This document shows, piece by piece, positions 51,008 through 60,657 of a DNA stretch of 64,000 bases. The DNA lies in assembly GCF_024721175.1 (NCBI RefSeq), contig NZ_CP099399.1, positions 2,790,001-2,854,000 on the forward strand, read 5' to 3'. The position numbers and the translations under genes are program-made. A model generated the notes under the pieces. It was given only the letters and a program-made list of their open reading frames with translations. It was not told where the DNA came from and made no database searches. Every line of letters begins with the position of its first letter. Within the stretch, counting starts at the first letter, position 1. The stretch is from Rhizobium sp. Pop5. GTDB taxonomy: Bacteria > Pseudomonadota > Alphaproteobacteria > Rhizobiales > Rhizobiaceae.

Positions 51008-51063
51008 GCACGAAGGTTGGCCACCAAAGCTGAGTGAGTTAATGGATGAGCCGACCTCCCCCT

Positions 51064-51200
51064 CCTCATTCCTGTGCATGTCACAGGAATCCAGTGCGCC
51101 CAAGTCCTTGGGCGCAGGAGACTCTTTTCAACTGCTCATGGCGTCATTCACCGCGCAGACGCGCGGTGGCTGGATTCCTGTGACAAGCACAGGAATGAGG
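51064..51200. repeat. Inverted-repeat element, family A copy 1
   Basis: Two units face inward. Each has a conserved hairpin (ATTCCTGTG paired with CACAGGAAT) ending in CCAG, then a variable stem with GTCC/GTCT loop: GCGCCCAA stem at 51096-51115 and CACCGCGC stem at 51149-51168. Outer arms 31 bp, one mismatch. Lies between padR and map; very similar to 60515-60657. Confidence 0.85.
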
Positions 51201-51301
51201 GAGGAGAAGTGAGCGCCCGACGAAGTGCCAGGGAGACGCGGCTGATCGCGACAACCATCGGAATCCCCAAAGGGCGCGGCCTCCCCAATACGGTTTCAGC
51301 C

Positions 51302-52060
51302 CTACCCCCGCTCATCCGGCAGCGTCAAAATCATCGGCCCATTCCGCGTTGCAACCACCGTATGCTCGTATTGCACGGTCGGCGCCTTCGGATCGGCATA
51401 GAGCGTCCAGGCATCGTCGCCGCCTTCGGCCCAAGTCGCGCCGAGCGAAAGGAAGGGCTCGACGGTGAAGACGAGACCATCAGTCATCACGCGCTTTTCC
51501 GAAGGGTCCGGCCAGGTCGAAAGCTCGGCCGGCTCCTCGTGCAGCGAGCGGCCGACGCCGTGGCTCGCGAGGTTCGCGACCAGCGTATAGCGGTTCTTCT
51601 GCGCGAAAGCGCCGACGGCAGTGCCGATCTTTGCCAGCGGTTCGCCCGATTTCACCTGATTGAGACCGACCCAGAGCGCCCGCCTGCCATCGCGGCAGAG
51701 CCGTTCGATCTTCGGCTTGACCGGCGGCACGGCAAAGGAAGCGCCGGTATCGGCGAAGAAGCCGTCCTTCTCAGCCGAGACGTCGATATTGATGAGATCG
51801 CCGGCGCGGATGACGCGCGGGCCTGGAATGCCGTGGGCGATTTCCTCGTTGATGCTGATGCAGGTCGCACCCGGAAATTGGTAGCAGAACTCCGGTGCCG
51901 AGCGCGCACCCGCATCCTCGAGCACCTTGCGGCCGATCTGGTCGAGCTCCAGCGTCGTCATGCCGGGCTCCATCGCCGCGGCCATCACCTGAATGGCGTT
52001 GGCGCAGATGCGGCCGATTTCCTTGAGCTTCACCAGTTCGTCGTCGTCTACGATGACCAT
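51302..52060 (-). CDS. map: Type I methionine aminopeptidase
   Basis: 252 residues; removes N-terminal Met from nascent proteins. Metal ligands recognisable in NIDVSAEKDGFFADTG (two Asp), ASHGVGRSLHEEP (His), FTVEP (Glu) and the C-terminal QYEHTVV (Glu). HGIPGPR carries the substrate-side His. Rhizobia usually carry more than one map; this is probably an additional copy. It precedes, on the same strand, only repeat sequence. Confidence 0.93.
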   Translation of the reverse strand: MVIVDDDELVKLKEIGRICANAIQVMAAAMEPGMTTLELDQIGRKVLEDAGARSAPEFCYQFPGATCISINEEIAHGIPGPRVIRAGDLINIDVSAEKDGFFADTGASFAVPPVKPKIERLCRDGRRALWVGLNQVKSGEPLAKIGTAVGAFAQKNRYTLVANLASHGVGRSLHEEPAELSTWPDPSEKRVMTDGLVFTVEPFLSLGATWAEGGDDAWTLYADPKAPTVQYEHTVVATRNGPMILTLPDERG

Positions 52061-52099
52061 TCGTCTTTTCCGGGCTGGTAGAGGGCAGCCGCGGCCACC

Positions 52100-53170
52100 T
52101 CAAGCTGTGGCTTTCGCCCCTTCGTCCTTTTCAGTCAATGCCTTTCTGACGATCGGCGCCACTTTCGTTCCGTAGAGCTCGATGCCGCGCATGATCTGAT
52201 CATGCGGCATCAGGCCGATCGCCATCTGCAGCAGGAAACGATCGTTCTTGAAAAGCGCGTGATGGGCGATGATCTTTTCGGCGACCACCTCGGGATCGCC
52301 GAGGAAGAGCGCGCCGTTCGGCCCGCGCGACATGTCGAAATGCGCCCGGCTGGTCGGTCCCCAGCCGCGCTCGCGGCCGATGCGGTTCATCACTTCGGCC
52401 TGCGGCCCGTAGAATTGCTCGGCCGCCTTTTCCGTCGTGTCGGCGATGAAACCGTGAACGTTGATGCTGGTCTTCAGCTTCGCCTGGTCCTGCCCAGCCC
52501 GACGCGCCGCCTCACGATAGAGATCGAAGAGCGGCGCAAAACGGCGCGGCTCACCGCCGATGATCGCCAGCGCCACCGGCAGGCCGAGAGCACCGGCGCG
52601 CGCCACCGACTGCGGTGTGCCGCCGACGGCGACCCAGAGCGGCAACGGATCCTGCAGCGGCCGGGGATAGACGCCGCGACCGCGGATCGGCGCGCGAAGC
52701 TCACCGCTCCAGTCGACCGTCTCGCTGTCACGCAGCGCCAACAGCAGATCGAGCTTCTCTTCGAAAAGCTGGTCGTAATCTTCGAGATTGTAGCCGAACA
52801 GCGGGAAGGACTCGATGAAGGAGCCGCGCCCCGCCATGATCTCAGCCCGGCCGTTGGAGATCAGGTCGAGGGTCGAGAATTGCTGAAAGACACGCACCGG
52901 ATCATCCGAGGAAAGCACGGTGACTGCGCTCGTCAGCCGAATGTTCTTCGTTTTGACGGCCGCCGCTGCCAACGCCACCGCGGGAGCTGACGCCGCATAG
53001 TCCGGCCGATGATGTTCGCCGAGCCCGAAGACGTCGAGCCCCACCTGATCGGCAAGCTCGATCTCCTCGATCAGATGCTTCAGCCGCTCTGCCCCTTCCG
53101 CTCCCTTGGCGCGGGAGGGATTAGGATTGACGTCCGCGAAGGTATAAAGCCCCAATTCCATTGTCGGCAT
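52100..53170 (-). CDS. LLM-class (luciferase-like) flavin-dependent oxidoreductase
   Basis: 356 residues, bacterial-luciferase TIM barrel using FMNH2 or F420. N-terminal [25 protein letters not shown] (about 48-62), [18 protein letters not shown] (about 97-114). The substrate is unknown; related proteins include alkanal monooxygenase-like enzymes. MetAP gene lies 40 bases downstream on the same strand. The start could also be three codons later. Confidence 0.87.
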
Positions 53171-53294
53171 CCCGTTGAACTCGACCCGCAGATAAGGATC
53201 GCCAAGAGCGAACGCAAATACAAACTATGGAACGGAATGTTCGAGAATCTTGATAGCGGTTGGATGGTTCGACGATGTCGCTCAGGCTTGGCCG

Positions 53295-53368
53295 GCAGCT
53301 CGCTAGAAGTCTTTGCGCCGTAGACACGGCGCTGCTGGATTCCTGTGACAAGCACAGGAATGAGGGAG
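53295..53368. repeat. Family A unit, reverse orientation
   Basis: Conserved hairpin arm at 53335-53368 (34 bases, identical to the right arm of the 60515-60657 copy), then CAG and a variable stem GCGCCGT closed by AGAC (GTCT on the other strand) at 53315-53332, then AGACTT on the complementary strand. Faces the unit at 53474-53537. Confidence 0.8.
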
Positions 53369-53473
53369 CAAGAAGTGCGCACCCCGCCACTCATATCCAT
53401 TATCATTCAAAGCATTAGTATCAGATGCTAATTGGGTGAAGCAGTTGTTGTTGAACACTTTGAGTGCCAAGAA
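53369..53473. other. Spacer between two family A units
   Basis: 105 bases, more AT-rich than the surroundings (ATCATTCAAAGCATTAG-like sequence). No gene visible; it may be remnant or host sequence enclosed by the two units. Confidence 0.5.
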
Positions 53474-53537
53474 CTCCCTCATTCCTGTGCTCGTCACAGG
53501 AATCCAGCAGTCGCGCGTCCGCGCGACGAGAGACTTT
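53474..53537. repeat. Family A unit, forward orientation
   Basis: 34-base conserved arm (53474-53507, one mismatch), then a variable stem GTCGCGC closed by GTCC (53510-53527) and GAGAGACTTT. It ends exactly at the stop codon of the GIY-YIG gene. Confidence 0.8.
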
Positions 53538-53828
53538 TCACAGCCCCAGCAGATGAAACGAAATATCCTCCCACTGAGGATTTTCCCGCTCGATCAGATT
53601 GAGCTTCCATTGCCTCGGCCACTTCTTGATCGTCTTCTCCCGCGTGATCGCGGTCGTCAGCAAATCATGCTCCTCGAACCAGACCAGCGTCTTGACTCCA
53701 TACTTCGACGTAAAGCCTGGCGTCAGTTCATTCTGGTGCTCGTATAGTCGCCCGGCCAGGTCGCGTGTCACACCGGTGTAGAGTGTGCCGTTACGTGCGG
53801 ATGCAAGAATGTAGACATAACCCTTCAT
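53538..53828 (-). CDS. Stand-alone GIY-YIG nuclease domain protein
   Basis: 96 residues, one GIY-YIG domain (UvrC/Slx1-like small type). YVYILA (about 4-9) and LYTGVTRDLAGRLYEHQ (about 16-32) hold the two Tyr motifs and the catalytic Arg; the Glu is in REKTIKKWPRQWK-type segment. Such short proteins are common in bacteria with no settled role. Its stop codon abuts a family A repeat unit, an association worth testing. Confidence 0.85.
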   Translation of the reverse strand: MKGYVYILASARNGTLYTGVTRDLAGRLYEHQNELTPGFTSKYGVKTLVWFEEHDLLTTAITREKTIKKWPRQWKLNLIERENPQWEDISFHLLGL

Positions 53829-54004
53829 GCCGGCAGATTGGCACAGGACGCATTCCGCGTCGACAGAGGCGCGAACGCGACCAAATTACCAATTCCAGCT
53901 AGTTTCAACGACTTCCAGGTATCGGCGGAATCACCTCCCAAGCTGCCTCACACCGCGCTTGAAGCGTCGGGACGGCGCGGCCTTCACCGCGCCGTCTCCA
54001 CTGC

Positions 54005-54472
54005 TCACATCTTCGCCAGCAGTTCCGCCAGCTGGTCCGCAGCCTTACCCCAGCCTTCATGGAAGCCCATCTTCTCGTGCGCTTCCTTGTCCTCGGCGCG
54101 CCAGTGCAGCGCCTTGGCGGTGTATTTCGTCCTGCCGTTGCCGAGTTCTTCGAGCAGGATGACGCCCGTGAAGAAGGGTTTTTCGGCCGGCACCCAGGCG
54201 CTGGTATAGGCATCGGTGAAGACGATCTTTTCGTTCTCGATGATTTCGAGATAGACGCCGCGGTTCGGGTATTGATTGCCCTCGGGATCCTGCATCACGA
54301 TGACATTGGCGCCGCCGGGGCGGACGTCGAGTTTTGCTTCCGCCACGCCCCAGGGGCGCGGTACGAACCACTGTTTCAGCAGCTCCGGATCGGTCCATGC
54401 CCGGTAGATCTTCTCGCGCGGGGCATCGAATTCGCGAACGAGGACAAGTTCATGCTGCGTGCTGGCGGTCAT
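54005..54472 (-). CDS. AHSA1/SRPBCC domain protein
   Basis: 155 residues, a single START-like hydrophobic-pocket fold (AHSA1 type): REFDAPREKIYRAWTDPELLKQWF (about 13-36), PGGANVIVMQDPEGNQYPNRGVY, then C-terminal HEGWGKAADQLAELLAKM. GGAGAG lies before the ATG. AHSA1 proteins are frequent partners of YCII/DGPF proteins and ECF sigma factors; here the ECF42 gene ends 90 bases upstream on the same strand. Confidence 0.87.
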   Translation of the reverse strand: MTASTQHELVLVREFDAPREKIYRAWTDPELLKQWFVPRPWGVAEAKLDVRPGGANVIVMQDPEGNQYPNRGVYLEIIENEKIVFTDAYTSAWVPAEKPFFTGVILLEELGNGRTKYTAKALHWRAEDKEAHEKMGFHEGWGKAADQLAELLAKM

Positions 54473-54562
54473 TTCAACATCTCTCCGTTTGAATGAAACC
54501 TGTTTCGTCTCAGGTTGTTACAAGGACGTGTCGAAGTTCGGCATTGCGACAGCATGCTTGAA

Positions 54563-55822
54563 TTATTTTGCGACCGGCTGCGCCGCCTCTTCCTGCATCT
54601 TGTCGATCTGGTGGCGGATATGAGCAGCCTCCGCCGCAGACTGGGCAAGCGCGATGGCGCGGTCGAAGGCTTCGCGCGCCTGGCCGTTGCGGCCGAGTTG
54701 CTTCAACAGATTGCCGCGCAGACCATGATAGTAGAAATAGCCGTCGAGCTTCTCGCCGAGCGGTTCCACGACATCGAGCGCGGCCTGCGCCCCCTGCAAT
54801 TTGGAAATCACCACCGCCCGATTGAGCATGACGACGGGCGACGGCTGGATACGCTCCAGCGCGCGATAAAGCAGATCGATCTCGACCCAGTCTGTATCTT
54901 CAGCGCGTTTTGCCCGGGAATGAATCGCGGCGATCGCCGCCTGGATCTGGAAGGGCCCAGGCCGGCGATGACGCAGCGCCTTGTCGAGCAGCGCCAGCGC
55001 CTCGTTGATGAAGAGCTGGTTCCAGAGCGAGCGGTCCTGATCCTCAAGCAGCACGATCTCCCCCTCGGCACTGAAGCGCGCCGGCCGGCGCGAGATCTGC
55101 AGAAGCATCAGCGCAAGCAGCCCCATCATCTCCGGCTCGGAGGGAAAAATGCGCAGCATGAGGCGCGCAAGCCGGATCGCCTCGTCGCTGAAGGCGGTCG
55201 CATCATGTTTGGGATCGGCCTGGCTGTAGCCCTCGTTGAAGATGAGATAGATCATGGTGCTGACGATCGAAAGCCGCTCCGCCCGCTCCTCGGGGCTCGG
55301 CGTCTCGAAAGGCACCCCCGCCTTGGCGACGCGTGCCTTGGCGCGGGTGATGCGCTGCTCCATGGCACTTTCGGACACCAGGAAGGCGCGGGCGATCTGT
55401 GTCACCGAAAGGCCGGAGACGATGCGCAGCGCCAGCGCGATCTGCTGGGTCGCGGGCAGATCGGGATGGCAGCAGATGAAGAGAAGCCGCAGGATGTCGT
55501 CGCGATAGTTGGAATCATCAAGCCGCTCGGCGATATCGCTTTCGGCATCCTCCGTATCGGAGATCGTATCTTCATCCGGCAGGGCCTGCAGCTTCGAGCG
55601 CTTGCGCACGGCATCGATGCCGCTGTTGCGCCCGACGAAGATCAGCCAGGCCGTTGGATCGCGCGGCGGCCCTTTCTCCGGCCAGGTCCGGATCGCCCTC
55701 AGGCATGCCTCCTGGAACGCCTCTTCCGCGGTATCGAGATTGCGGAAATAGCGCAGCAGCGCGCCGAGCGCCTTGGGGCGGGCAGAAGCAAGCGCGAGGT
55801 CGATCCAGGCAATGTCGGTCAT
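54563..55822 (-). CDS. ECF-type RNA polymerase sigma factor, ECF42 group
   Basis: 419 residues, about twice the size of a normal ECF factor. N-terminal sigma2 (ALLRYFRNLDTAEEAFQEACLRAI, about 20-43) and sigma4 (QQIALALRIVSGLSVTQIAR, about 126-145) are followed by a long C-terminal part (about 190-419) with TPR-like helices, the ECF42 hallmark. No anti-sigma factor is present; in this group the extension replaces it. The gene overlaps the DGPF gene by ATGA. The target promoters are unknown here, though the downstream AHSA1 gene is a candidate. Confidence 0.88.
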   Translation of the reverse strand: MTDIAWIDLALASARPKALGALLRYFRNLDTAEEAFQEACLRAIRTWPEKGPPRDPTAWLIFVGRNSGIDAVRKRSKLQALPDEDTISDTEDAESDIAERLDDSNYRDDILRLLFICCHPDLPATQQIALALRIVSGLSVTQIARAFLVSESAMEQRITRAKARVAKAGVPFETPSPEERAERLSIVSTMIYLIFNEGYSQADPKHDATAFSDEAIRLARLMLRIFPSEPEMMGLLALMLLQISRRPARFSAEGEIVLLEDQDRSLWNQLFINEALALLDKALRHRRPGPFQIQAAIAAIHSRAKRAEDTDWVEIDLLYRALERIQPSPVVMLNRAVVISKLQGAQAALDVVEPLGEKLDGYFYYHGLRGNLLKQLGRNGQAREAFDRAIALAQSAAEAAHIRHQIDKMQEEAAQPVAK

Positions 55823-56193
55823 GATGCAGCATCTCCCGGCCTGAACACGTAGAAAGGCCGAATTTCGTAAGAGGTGGAACCGGGATTGACCGAAGAAAGC
55901 TGCTTCGAGAAGGCGACCGCCTCATCGAGCGTATCGAAGTCAACCACGTAGAAGCCGAGAAGCGCCTCCTTCGTTTCCGCAAAAGGCCCGTCGATGACGA
56001 GAGCCTCGTCCTTGCCCTTGCGCACGGTCGTCGCCGCCGTCGTCGGCATCAGCCGGCCGACAGGCCCCAGCTTGCCGGCTTTGGCGAGCGGCTCCTGCAC
56101 GGCGTAGAGCTTTTCCATGACGGCAGCCTCTTCCTCCTTGCTCCAGGCGAAGACGGTTTCCTCATGGGCGTAACACAGGATTGCGTAAAGCAT
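55819..56193 (-). CDS. YCII-related DGPF-domain protein
   Basis: 124 residues. The DGPF motif is present as DGPFAETKE (about 73-81); ferredoxin-like fold. Such proteins are the constant partner of ECF42 sigma factors; whether they are sensors or targets is not settled. GAGGAG lies before the ATG. First gene of the DGPF-ECF42-(AHSA1) cluster. Confidence 0.9.
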   Translation of the reverse strand: MLYAILCYAHEETVFAWSKEEEAAVMEKLYAVQEPLAKAGKLGPVGRLMPTTAATTVRKGKDEALVIDGPFAETKEALLGFYVVDFDTLDEAVAFSKQLSSVNPGSTSYEIRPFYVFRPGDAAS

Positions 56194-56285
56194 CGATCAC
56201 TCCTCTTTCCGAATGACGAAGGAGTAACCGCTTACCCGACAGGCCGCATTAAAAAATTATCGATGAAGCGGGAGCGCCATCTTGA

Positions 56286-56402
56286 ACATCGCGCCTTCTC
56301 ATTGAAGGGCGCTATATCGCGATCTACGAACCCATGCCTGACGGCATCTTCGTCGTCGCAGTGGCCTATGGTGTCCGCGATGTCGAGAACTGGCTGAGTT
56401 GA
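56286..56402 (+). pseudogene. C-terminal remnant of a RelE/ParE-type toxin
   Basis: After an in-frame stop at 56283-56285 the frame reads SRLLIEGRYIAIYEPMPDGI and continues to a GVRDVENWLS end. This is the typical C-terminal pattern of RelE/ParE toxins (R-L-hydrophobic-G-Y ... Y-P-G ... V-x-GxRDxxxxL). No start or N-terminal half and no antitoxin gene are present, so it is a dead fragment, perhaps left by a lost toxin-antitoxin module. Confidence 0.55.
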
Positions 56403-56422
56403 CAGGAATACCTGTCCTTTCG

Positions 56423-57916
<1,494 letters not shown>

Positions 57917-57934
57917 GAAGTCCCTCCCGCTAGA

Positions 57935-58032
57935 GCAATTCCAGCAAAAGTGCACCGCGGTTTTGCGTCCGGAATTGCGTGAAACAAAGAGATAGAGCAT
58001 TTCCGTGATTCGGAGAAAAACGGAAATGCTCT
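57935..58032. repeat. Palindromic repeat, family D copy 3 plus second hairpin
   Basis: First hairpin GCAATTCC ... GGAATTGC (57935-57978) as at 41552-41595. It is followed by AGAGCATTTCCG ... CGGAAATGCTCT (12-bp arms, 57994-58005 and 58021-58032). The composite sits between divergent glpK and bdhA, so it may affect their promoters. Confidence 0.75.
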
Positions 58033-58176
58033 GGCACGTTGATTATCGTGACAAATCAATAGGACACGGATGCGGGCGAGAAAAGCGAATAAAGCGGAAT
58101 TGCCAGGCCGCCGGCTTTGGGCATAACCTCGCCCGTAACGTTGCAACGCAGCATCGCGATGTCAGGAGAAAACAGC

Positions 58177-58953
58177 ATGAGCAGATCAGTCGTCGTCACC
58201 GGCTCCACCAGCGGCATCGGCCTTGCGATCGCCACGGCCTTTGCCGAAACGGGCGACAATGTCGTCATCAACGGCTTCGGAAATGCTGAAGACATCAAGA
58301 CGATCGTCGCACGGCTTGAATCATTGTCGAAGGGACGGGCAATCTATCATCCGGCCGACATGACCAAGCCCGCCGAAATTGCCGACCTGATCGAAACGAC
58401 GGCGAAGACTTTCGGCACCGTCGATGTCCTCGTCAACAATGCCGGCATCCAGCATGTCGAAAAGATCGAGGATTTCCCGATCGAGAAATGGGATCAGATC
58501 ATCGCGATCAATCTCTCCAGTTCCTTTCACACCATGCGCGCCGCGATCCCGTTGATGAAGGAAAGGAAGCATGGCCGCATCATCAACATCGCCTCGGCGC
58601 ACGGGCTCGTCGCCTCTCCGTTCAAATCCGCCTATGTAGCGGCAAAACATGGTATATTAGGCTTGACGAAGACGGCAGCGTTGGAGCTTGCCGAGTTTGG
58701 CGTCACCGTGAATGCCATCTGCCCCGGCTATGTGCTGACGCCGCTTGTGGAAAAGCAGATACCCGATACCGCCAAAGCCCGCGGCATGACCGAGGAGCAG
58801 GTGAAGAGCGAGGTCATCCTCAAGGCGCAGCCGACCCGGGAATTCGTCAAGGCCGAGGAGATCGGCGCGCTGTCGCTCTATCTCGCGAGCGACGCTGCCC
58901 GCCAGGTGACGGGAACGCATATCTCGATTGACGGTGGCTGGACGGCGGCTTAA
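58177..58953 (+). CDS. bdhA: D-beta-hydroxybutyrate dehydrogenase
   Basis: 258 residues, SDR family; oxidises 3-hydroxybutyrate to acetoacetate with NAD, the PHB-degradation step. Rossmann TGSTSGIG (about 7-14), NNAG, catalytic Ser/Tyr/Lys in NIASAHGLVASPFKSAYVAAK. CAGGAG precedes the ATG. In S. meliloti bdhA heads an operon with xdhA2-xdhB2; the same order occurs here with xdhA 28 bases downstream. Confidence 0.93.
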   Translation: MSRSVVVTGSTSGIGLAIATAFAETGDNVVINGFGNAEDIKTIVARLESLSKGRAIYHPADMTKPAEIADLIETTAKTFGTVDVLVNNAGIQHVEKIEDFPIEKWDQIIAINLSSSFHTMRAAIPLMKERKHGRIINIASAHGLVASPFKSAYVAAKHGILGLTKTAALELAEFGVTVNAICPGYVLTPLVEKQIPDTAKARGMTEEQVKSEVILKAQPTREFVKAEEIGALSLYLASDAARQVTGTHISIDGGWTAA

Positions 58954-58981
58954 CCATTTGGAAAAAACAACCGGGAATATC

Positions 58982-60448
58982 ATGAACGACAGCATCCGCT
59001 TCATCCTGAATGGCGAGGACATCGCCCTCTCCGATGTCAGGCCGACCGAGACGCTTCTCGATTTCCTGCGGTTGAATCGGCGCCTGACCGGCACCAAGGA
59101 AGGATGCGCGGAAGGCGATTGCGGCGCCTGCACCGTGCTTGTCGGGCGGCTCGCCGACGGCAAACTCACCTATGAATCCGTCAATGCCTGCATCCGTTTC
59201 TTAGGATCGCTGCACGCCACCCATGTGGTGACGGTCGAGCATCTGGCCGGCAGGGACGGCGCACTGCATCCGGTGCAGCAGGCGCTTGTCGATTGCCACG
59301 GTTCGCAATGCGGCTTCTGCACGCCGGGCTTCGTCATGTCGCTTTATGGGCTTTGGCTCACGACGGAGAAGCCCGGCCGCCGAGAGATCGAAAAGGCATT
59401 GCAAGGCAATCTCTGTCGCTGCACCGGCTATGAGCCGATCGTCAAGGCCGCTGAGCAGGTGAGCCTGATGCGGCCAAGCGCCCTCTTCGACCCGCTGGAA
59501 CGGACGCGCTCGGAAATCATCGCGCGGCTCTGGGCGATGCAGGCGAACGGCACCATCAGGATCGGGAAGGATGAAGACCGGCTGATCGTACCGGCCTCGA
59601 TCCAGGCGCTGGCGGAAATCCTCTCGCAGGAGCCCGACGCGACCGTCGTCGCCGGCTCGACCGATGTCGGCCTCTGGGTGACGAAGCAGATGCGCCGGCT
59701 GAGCCCCGTCGTGTTCATCAATCACCTGAGCGAACTGCAATCGGTGACGCAGAGCGAGGATGGCATCACCATCGGCGCCGGCGTCAGCTATACCGGCGCC
59801 TTTACGGCCATCTCCAAAAGGATCCCGGCGCTCGGGCGGCTGATCGACCGCATCGGCGGCGAACAGGTGCGCAATATGGGCACGATCGGCGGCAACATCG
59901 CCAACGGCTCGCCGATCGGCGACAGCCCGCCGCCGTTGATCGCGCTCGGCGCGACGCTGACGCTGCGCTCCCTCGAAGGCCAGCGAAAAATGCCGCTCGA
60001 GGATTTCTTCATCGCCTACGGCAGGCAGGACCGCAGGCCCGGCGAATTCGTCGAGAGCGTCTTCGTGCCCACCCCCAAGGGAACCAGCCGCTTTGCCGCC
60101 TACAAGATCACCAAGCGCCGCGATGAGGACATCACCGCCGTCCTCGGCGCCTTCCTGCTCACCCGCGACGAGGCCGAAATGGTCACCGACATCCGCATCG
60201 CCTTCGGCGGCATGGCGGCAACGCCGAAGCGCGCCCGCACGGTGGAGGCTGCACTGATCGGAAAGCCCTGGACGGAAGCAACGATCGAGGTCGCCCGCCC
60301 CGCCTTCGACGCCGACTACCAGCCGCTGACCGACTGGCGCGCCACGGCGGAGTACCGGCAGCTGACCGCGAAGAACCTGCTGACCCGGTTCTATCTCGAG
60401 ACGGTGGGCGCGCCAGCGGAACTGAAACGGTTTGAGGAGGTGGCGTGA
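58982..60448 (+). CDS. xdhA: Xanthine dehydrogenase, small subunit (FeS/FAD)
   Basis: 488 residues. N-terminal plant-type 2Fe-2S (CAEGDCGAC, about 41-49), then the alpha-helical 2Fe-2S domain (CGFCTPG and NLCRCTGY), then an FAD domain (about 190-480; NMGTIGGNIANGSPIGDSPP). Oxidises xanthine to urate with XdhB. Family length and MNDSIRFILNGED N-terminus set the start. Confidence 0.95.
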   Translation: MNDSIRFILNGEDIALSDVRPTETLLDFLRLNRRLTGTKEGCAEGDCGACTVLVGRLADGKLTYESVNACIRFLGSLHATHVVTVEHLAGRDGALHPVQQALVDCHGSQCGFCTPGFVMSLYGLWLTTEKPGRREIEKALQGNLCRCTGYEPIVKAAEQVSLMRPSALFDPLERTRSEIIARLWAMQANGTIRIGKDEDRLIVPASIQALAEILSQEPDATVVAGSTDVGLWVTKQMRRLSPVVFINHLSELQSVTQSEDGITIGAGVSYTGAFTAISKRIPALGRLIDRIGGEQVRNMGTIGGNIANGSPIGDSPPPLIALGATLTLRSLEGQRKMPLEDFFIAYGRQDRRPGEFVESVFVPTPKGTSRFAAYKITKRRDEDITAVLGAFLLTRDEAEMVTDIRIAFGGMAATPKRARTVEAALIGKPWTEATIEVARPAFDADYQPLTDWRATAEYRQLTAKNLLTRFYLETVGAPAELKRFEEVA

Positions 60449-60514
60449 TGAAGACGGTAGTCAGCACGCCCGGAATGCAAGCCTTGATGAGAGGAGCAGC
60501 CGCGGTCTCCTCCC

Positions 60515-60657
60515 CTCCCTCATTCCTGTGCTTGTCACAGGAATCCAGTGCGCCCAAGTCCTTGGGCGCGGAAGACCCTTTTATCAGCTTCAGCGAGTCA
60601 TTCACCGCGCGGACGCGCGGTGGCTGGATTCCTGTGACAAGCACAGGAATGAGGGAG
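60515..60657. repeat. Inverted-repeat element, family A copy 2
   Basis: Perfect 34-bp terminal arms (60515-60548, 60624-60657) around 75 bases. Variable hairpins GCGCCCAA-GTCC (60550-60569) and CACCGCGC-GGAC (60603-60622). It lies between xdhA and xdhB and lengthens the gap to 256 bases. Nearly the same as the copy at 51064-51200. Short open frames running through it are spurious. Confidence 0.87.

Follow-up and report, generated by a model that had tools for sequence, protein, structure and literature searches.

The 64,000-nucleotide stretch of the Rhizobium sp. Pop5 genome analysed here (the window; contig NZ_CP099399.1, positions 2,790,001 to 2,854,000 of the forward strand) carries copies of an intergenic repeat whose inner hairpin combines a fixed GTC loop with stems that are rewritten while staying paired. 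Read from the outside of an element inwards, each unit consists of a CCTC tag, a first hairpin (H1), the letters CCAG and a second hairpin (H2); in the window units H1 is formed by ATTCCTGTG, a 5-nt loop and CACAGGAAT. The structural rule is real and strong and, as far as searched, apparently undescribed in a repeat of known kind: the copies are almost certainly head-to-head dimers of repetitive extragenic palindromes (REPs) of the CGTC type. The H2 hairpin is probably under selection, and we propose, with a probability of roughly one in four, that the repeat is a strand-polar signal read as a structure, in which a putative host factor would act on the GTC-loop H2 beside H1, the unlike H2 hairpins of the two ends would hold a two-eared fold and the interior would flip freely.

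The family was sampled as 312 distinct Rhizobiaceae units from 180 loci: 30 in the window's genome, 30 among the matches listed for other genomes of the genus, whose counts per genome are complete, and at least 120 in GTDB stretches matching a pattern of H1 alone. Because the search patterns contained no H2 letters, H2 was not selected for, while the conservation of H1 partly was. H2 was called by pairing (at least five of seven stem pairs, loop letters not used) in 286 of the 312 units, with all seven pairs formed in 206, six in 63 and five in 17. The loop is GTC followed by C, T or G in 268 of these 286 (GTCC 147, GTCT 93, GTCG 28) and starts 9 nt after CCAG in 272; in a larger set, 439 of 465 units called by pairing have the GTC loop. 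Thus H2 is neither often unpaired nor variable in its loop across the family. The sequence-only reading of the window had given the loop as GTCC or GTCT, which holds for the six window units, but family-wide about one H2 in ten carries GTCG. The 26 units with fewer than five pairs stay outside the loop count and include fused palindromes, units adjoining insertion sequences (ISs), and units of Aliihoeflea and of a metagenome-assembled genome (MAG) in which H1 is followed by GCCTC.

The covariation expected from the six window hairpins proved to be strong. The 151 distinct H2s used for this analysis, like the units used for the tail count given below, had passed the pairing filter, and unfiltered windows in a fixed register served as the control. 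After background correction, the 11 column pairs that covary most strongly include all eight pairs of the H2 stem, and the information content is 1.6–1.7 bits in the loop GTC, compared to 0.3–1.3 bits in the columns of the inner seven stem pairs. In the control, built from 300 correctly oriented units with 142 distinct H2 windows, Watson-Crick pairs make up 77% of the stem cells. Shuffling the 3' arms among copies 500 times lowers this to a mean of 39% and a maximum of 47%, and sliding the partner by one and two bases lowers it to 26% and 36%. The loops of these 300 units are GTCC in 136, GTCT in 90 and GTCG in 26; none has a reverse-complement loop (GGAC, AGAC, CGAC or TGAC). Wrongly oriented matches (34 with the tag CTGG) contaminated one two-sided count, which was discarded.

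The stems are not four unrelated sequences, as first proposed from the window. They form two main classes, A (..CCAA/TTGG..) and B (for the most part ..GCGC/GCGC..), whose many variants include 33 distinct fully paired 7-bp arms. The window stem CACCGCGC is a C-G/G-C swap of the commoner CACGGCGC, and both are seen at one orthologous site (L211, the window's own copy, and L212). The commonest stems vary by genus and the loop does not: in class B, for example, they are GACGCGC in Agrobacterium, GCGCCGC in Sinorhizobium, and ACGGCGC and ACCGCGC in Rhizobium.

Paired changes also occur at individual sites. We compared orthologous A/B elements with both flanks conserved and at least two records, a set of 70 elements at 24 sites; this set, and that used for architecture below, comprise elements with both flanks present and both stems called. 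In 82 same-orientation H2 comparisons, which are pairwise and non-independent, we counted 27 two-sided changes of a stem pair, all of them Watson-Crick and none unpaired, against 3.2 expected from the per-base rate, together with 29 one-sided changes. Counting each combination of site, end, position and pair type a single time leaves 18 one-sided and 13 two-sided changes; the latter fall at 8 of 22 sites, and one symmetrical length change accounts for three of them. Some same-site changes swap a single pair, for example CGCCCAA/TTGGGCG and CGCTCAA/TTGAGCG.

Complementary arms could also be kept up without any function, through template switching in hairpins and ectopic gene conversion, with copies spreading the common stems. 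Many of the same-site swaps are between common stem types, the commonest types differ by genus, and fused H1 palindromes, internal deletions and inversion of the interior speak of active palindrome-mediated rearrangement. On the other hand, the GTC loop keeps one polarity while the stems change (439 of 465 units, with no reverse complement in 300), and neutral upkeep of the arms is insufficient because the fixed loop stays unexplained by it. Gene conversion is also harder to invoke because some swaps change a single pair at one site and are not simple copies of a common type. As a full account, we therefore hold such upkeep to be improbable. Selection on the folded structure, which the sequence-only reading had put forward, is the best though not the sole reading of the family-wide covariation and the paired same-site changes, and ectopic gene conversion or template switching may carry part of them. 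A loop-reading protein, which that reading had raised as one option, may be involved.

The two ends of an element were never seen to carry alike H2. Among 117 full elements, one per site, none has alike H2 ends (arms within one base of each other), whereas random re-pairing of ends gives 27.2 alike elements on average and a minimum of 13 in 1000 trials; the smallest difference between the H2 arms of two ends is 3 of 7. The H1s of the two ends differ at a mean of 2.9 of 28 positions, compared to 2.7 in random pairing. Neither end is scored as class A in 13 elements; alike H2 ends are absent from these as well (4.4 expected, P 0.006), but several of the 13 resemble degraded A types.

RNAfold predicts that, under RNA parameters, 110 of the 117 elements form a long H1:H1' stem bearing two H2 ears, with one all-local and six other folds; under DNA parameters 105 do so, with seven all-local and five other folds. 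Such a two-eared fold requires unlike ears. Predicted RNA fold energies of the two full window elements lie between about -100 and -107 kcal/mol. At 5 of the 24 orthologous sites the interior is inverted between species with the flanks unchanged, the outcome expected of recombination between inverted H1s. Single H1 palindromes (at L186, at L283 and on contig C2 of the window's genome, G000:C2:2344588-2344618) resemble fusions of a left-half and a right-half H1, that is, central deletions.

Compact elements measure 108–113 bp from H1 to H1', and the spacing between the 7-bp H2 arms has modes at 14–15 and about 31–36 nt. In 143 of 283 units the 16 nt following H2 contain GANTC, mostly as GACTC, and the inter-H2 spacers contain GANTC in 77 of 117 cases, against 9.9% of shuffled ones. 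Six other N-centred palindromes were counted for comparison: five occur in 3–6 of these spacers each, and AGNCT, which overlaps the AGACTC motif, in 56. Since the spacer GANTC is mostly GACTC in unit polarity, its conservation as a methylation site does not follow. The GAGACTTTT-like tail noticed in the window is real and not universal, GANTC being present in only some window tails.

Three further readings of the loop were tried and rejected. A loop-loop contact between the ears is not supported by covariation, the fourth loop base being the same in 34 of 106 elements (34.2 expected), and none of the 11 elements with a departing loop has a matching change in the partner. Against pairing between the loop (GTC) and the tail (GAC), the tail base that precedes GAC is independent of the fourth loop base. 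A CsrA-type GGA loop on the other strand was set aside, as many loops are GTCT or GTCG.

In the window, all six two-hairpin units are present where the sequence-only reading had placed them, and the full H2 complementarity it described is borne out in each; what it had missed is that these are head-to-head dimers of a published kind of REP, with unlike H2 ends and stems falling into classes. Two inward-facing pairs, 51061-51203 and 60515-60657 (elements 1 and 3), are head-to-head dimers of 143 bp each. Another pair faces outward with its tags inside (53315-53368, minus strand, and 53474-53535, plus strand). Read from outside to inside, the H2 loop is GTCC at 51104, 53517 and 60558 (plus strand) and 60611-60614 (minus strand), and GTCT at 51157-51160 and 53322-53325 (both minus strand). 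In the following list the H2 hairpins are based on sequence and predicted fold, and the right-hand H1s, the H1s of the outward pair and the spacer on sequence.

51061-51094, plus strand: element 1, left H1 with CCAG tail and tag CCTC, almost certainly a CGTC-type REP unit; 97% complementary to the right-hand units
51096-51115, plus strand: element 1, H2 of class A, GCGCCCAA-GTCC-TTGGGCGC
51116-51128, plus strand: element 1, tail AGGAGACTCTTTT with a GANTC site at 51120-51124, a motif enriched family-wide
51149-51168, minus strand: element 1, H2 of class B, CACCGCGC-GTCT-GCGCGGTG
51170-51203, minus strand: element 1, right H1
53315-53332, minus strand: outward pair, H2 of the minus unit, GCGCCGT-GTCT-ACGGCGC
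53335-53368, minus strand: outward pair, H1 of the minus unit
53474-53507, plus strand: outward pair, H1 of the plus unit
53510-53527, plus strand: outward pair, H2 of the plus unit, GTCGCGC-GTCC-GCGCGAC, followed by GAGAGACTTTT
60515-60548, plus strand: element 3, left H1, 100% complementary to 60624-60657
60550-60569, plus strand: element 3, H2 of class A, GCGCCCAA-GTCC-TTGGGCGC
60570-60602, no strand assigned: element 3, spacer with a GANTC site (GAGTC, 60595-60599)
60603-60622, minus strand: element 3, H2 of class B, CACCGCGC-GTCC-GCGCGGTG
60624-60657, minus strand: element 3, right H1

The available text of Di Nocera et al. (2013; PMC3733652) describes CGTC-type REPs as having an unpaired CGTC tag, often TGTC or CCTC, an 8–9 bp stem opening with an A-T and then a T-A pair, a 4–5 nt loop and a CCA tail, and as forming mostly head-to-head dimers between convergent and co-directional open reading frames (ORFs), with no dedicated transposase. 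The present repeat agrees in its tag (CCTC 388, CGTC 48 and TGTC 2, together 438 of 465 units), 9-bp stem, 5-nt H1 loop, CCA tail, dimers (191 of 277 elements are inward pairs with the tags outside) and gene context. Columns 1–2, 22–23 and 24–26 read A,T; A,T; and C,C,A in 147–150 of the 151 distinct-H2 units, partly by construction of the H1-pattern search, and the A-T/T-A first pairs and CCA tail are directly visible in the window units. For several CGTC-3 dimers of A. tumefaciens, that text also notes two stem-loops, one at either end of the spacer and 20–23 bp apart, as opposed to the two modes found here. It is silent on the constancy of the GTC loop, on covariation in the spacer stems, on the unlike ears and on the interior inversion, and we found no report of these in the literature searched, outside which most subscription papers lie. 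Oligomers of the repeat were not found printed in the same literature.

The repeat is very probably RIME1, the Rhizobium-specific intergenic mosaic element, an identification based on its general description and on citing papers available in part. RIME1 (Osteras, Stanley and Finan, 1995) is reportedly an intergenic element of about 108 bp with two large palindromes, occurring in Rhizobium and S. meliloti; this size matches that of the compact elements, a likeness of description and not of sequence. Around pckA/chvI, reportedly its type region, no unit was found within 8 mismatches in stretches from four genomes, the original strain not being among them.

The repeat also resembles E. coli-type REPs, bacterial interspersed mosaic elements (BIMEs) and REP doublets forming hairpins (REPINs), with paired inverted hairpin units at the 3' sides of genes, a likely place for effects on mRNA. 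Caulobacter intergenic repeats (Chen and Shapiro, 2003) are said to be inverted repeats with a GANTC (CcrM) site near the centre; here 77 of the 117 spacers hold GANTC, though mostly as a fixed GACTC, and the likeness is again one of description, not of sequence. Rfam gave no match at the curated cut-off; three matches below the gathering score are all plant microRNA precursors (MIR847 at 37.1 bits, cut-off 184, E 5.8e-5, and MIR1883 twice), which is what long hairpins tend to give.

We assessed the gene context with gene calls from a codon-usage script, used for the window as well. Of 160 sites, one element each, we excluded 12 located at the edge of a record and 2 located within predicted ORFs; 73 of the rest lie in co-directional, 64 in convergent and 9 in divergent gaps, that is, 137 of 146 in co-directional or convergent ones. 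Background gaps of 100–1200 bp in the same records are co-directional in 261 cases, convergent in 49 and divergent in 165, so that divergent gaps are depleted (9 of 146 against 165 of 475, Fisher P 2e-13 against the rest). Element 1 is flanked by convergent genes that encode a PadR-like regulator and a methionyl aminopeptidase. The outward pair separates same-strand luciferase-like monooxygenase and GIY-YIG genes, and element 3 separates xdhA from xdhB. Five annotated copies on plasmids, from three different sites, are each flanked by operon-like genes that run co-directionally.

The xdhA-xdhB gap is filled by different repeats in different species: in relatives without the present repeat it holds another palindromic repeat, CCTCATCCGGCTGCCGCCACCTTCTCCCC-like (L219, L220, L221, L222, L224, L226, L230, L234). 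In the xdhA-xdhB copy L217, the loop of one H1 is enlarged by a small inserted hairpin.

This placement suggests a possible though doubtful alternative, an RNA element that is transcribed past gene ends, folds, and protects, processes or attenuates mRNA in operons and at convergent ends. The gap counts, the plasmid copies, the position of element 3 and the very stable predicted RNA fold are in its favour; the available text of PMC2873474 reports transcripts over S. meliloti REP regions, and that of PMC3733652 proposes an RNA function for REPs in general. However, avoidance of divergent gaps could be mere promoter damage. Along transcripts, an apparent order of the A and B ends (29:11 without site clustering) weakens to 32:22 (P 0.22) with one element per site, and was dropped. 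The mismatches tolerated in the stem also run opposite to the RNA prediction. Counted once per site in unit polarity, G.T exceeds A.C by 45:22 (P 0.007), and it does so in sense units (12:5) and in antisense units (9:3). Selection on mRNA would favour A.C, which is G.U in RNA, in antisense units, and the excess of G.T thus leans towards a DNA hairpin of the GTCN strand. Units in co-directional gaps retain the GTC about equally in sense (100 of 104) and antisense orientation (100 of 105).

We tentatively favour, at somewhat less than even odds, a strand-polar reading of the GTC-loop hairpin at the level of DNA. Each unit would be a two-hairpin signal composed of the CCTC/CGTC tag, H1, CCAG, the GTC-loop H2 and often GACTC. 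H1 would pair with H1' as a long stem, from which, judging by the predicted folds, the two H2 hairpins would project as separate ears, being unable to pair with one another; if the ears were alike, they would form a single giant palindrome prone to deletion. The least certain step is that a candidate hairpin-binding factor would read the hairpin of the GTCN strand in single-stranded or, presumably, extruded DNA. This strand is taken as the thing read because loop, stem and tolerated mismatch follow unit polarity and not the direction of transcription.

Several points weigh against the proposed signal. The mismatch test is small and leans towards DNA only weakly, and among same-site orthologs G.T to A.C is just 14:11. 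Avoidance of divergent gaps fits an RNA role as well or better. Equal conservation of the loop in sense and antisense units is compatible with RNA too, because every transcript, in either direction, has a 5' GUCN ear and a 3' NGAC ear. An ancestral asymmetry of the ends could also give the unlike-ears rule, and the re-pairing null is blind to this. Some of the same-site swaps may be gene conversion, given how many are between stem types common in the family.

That the repeat is a REPIN-like unit still moved by a resident Y1 transposase (REP-associated tyrosine transposase, RAYT) reading its hairpins appears highly improbable. The copies are dispersed, form head-to-head dimers with tag, hairpin and tail, and vary in presence between species of the genus, being found in 64 of 100 genomes. 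However, the tag is CCTC/CGTC and not GTAG as in REPs and REPINs associated with a RAYT, and the available text of PMC3733652 gives no dedicated transposase for CGTC REPs. In our transposase survey, which covered the Y1_Tnp domain, none was found in the window's genome; the domain is present in 17 of the 100 genus genomes, 7 of the 64 with the repeat and 10 of the 36 without (Fisher P 0.05, opposite to a positive association). No clean pair of filled and empty alleles with a target duplication was found in the few sites examined, where relatives are too diverged or internally deleted; L186 and L283 are internal deletions and not empty sites.

Two copies in the window's genome (G000:C2:2042136-2043371 and G000:C2:2240635-2241868; L387 and L388) have about 1.1 kb inserted at the foot of H1. 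These insertions hold a 315-aa frame with the IS110-family transposase domains PF01548 and PF02371 (Pfam scan of one), which fits the targeting of S. meliloti REPs by IS110, IS4 and IS256 elements given in the available text of PMC1525189. On pSymB of S. meliloti GR4 and allied strains, H1 adjoins the end of an IS256-family element, ISRm5, and the right-hand H1 of another pSymB copy is interrupted in some strains (L279, L262-L263, L284-L285).

Searching the window's genome with the H1 pattern at up to 3 mismatches gives 23 matches per strand, where one H1 can match both strands, and the reversed control pattern gives none. H2 apparently follows H1 in 21 of the 23 units listed, judged for minus-strand units from the last 10 bases, and the two exceptions adjoin inserted ISs. 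The chromosomal matches are confined to G000:C2:1997695-3248109, 1.25 Mb of the 4.43-Mb contig C2, and only two units lie outside it, on contig C3. The usual dimer faces inward; outward-facing units about 105–150 bp apart occur in the window (53315-53535), at G000:C2:2456070-2456208 and at G007:C1:2957281-2957441. In Aliihoeflea and the Rhizobiaceae MAG, GCCTC instead of H2 follows H1 in most units (L067, L071, L077, L132, L148, L152), and H2 may therefore have been added in part of the family.

What REP-like repeats do is not settled, above all for the CGTC type without a known transposase. The fixed loop, the rewritten but paired stems and the paired changes at single sites suggest that these repeats are maintained as structures, and the GTC-loop H2 offers a short, defined probe for finding a reader. 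The available text of PMC3733652 suggests that heterodimers may escape SbcCD, and the unlike inner hairpins would provide a concrete case for this idea of escape from palindrome clearance.

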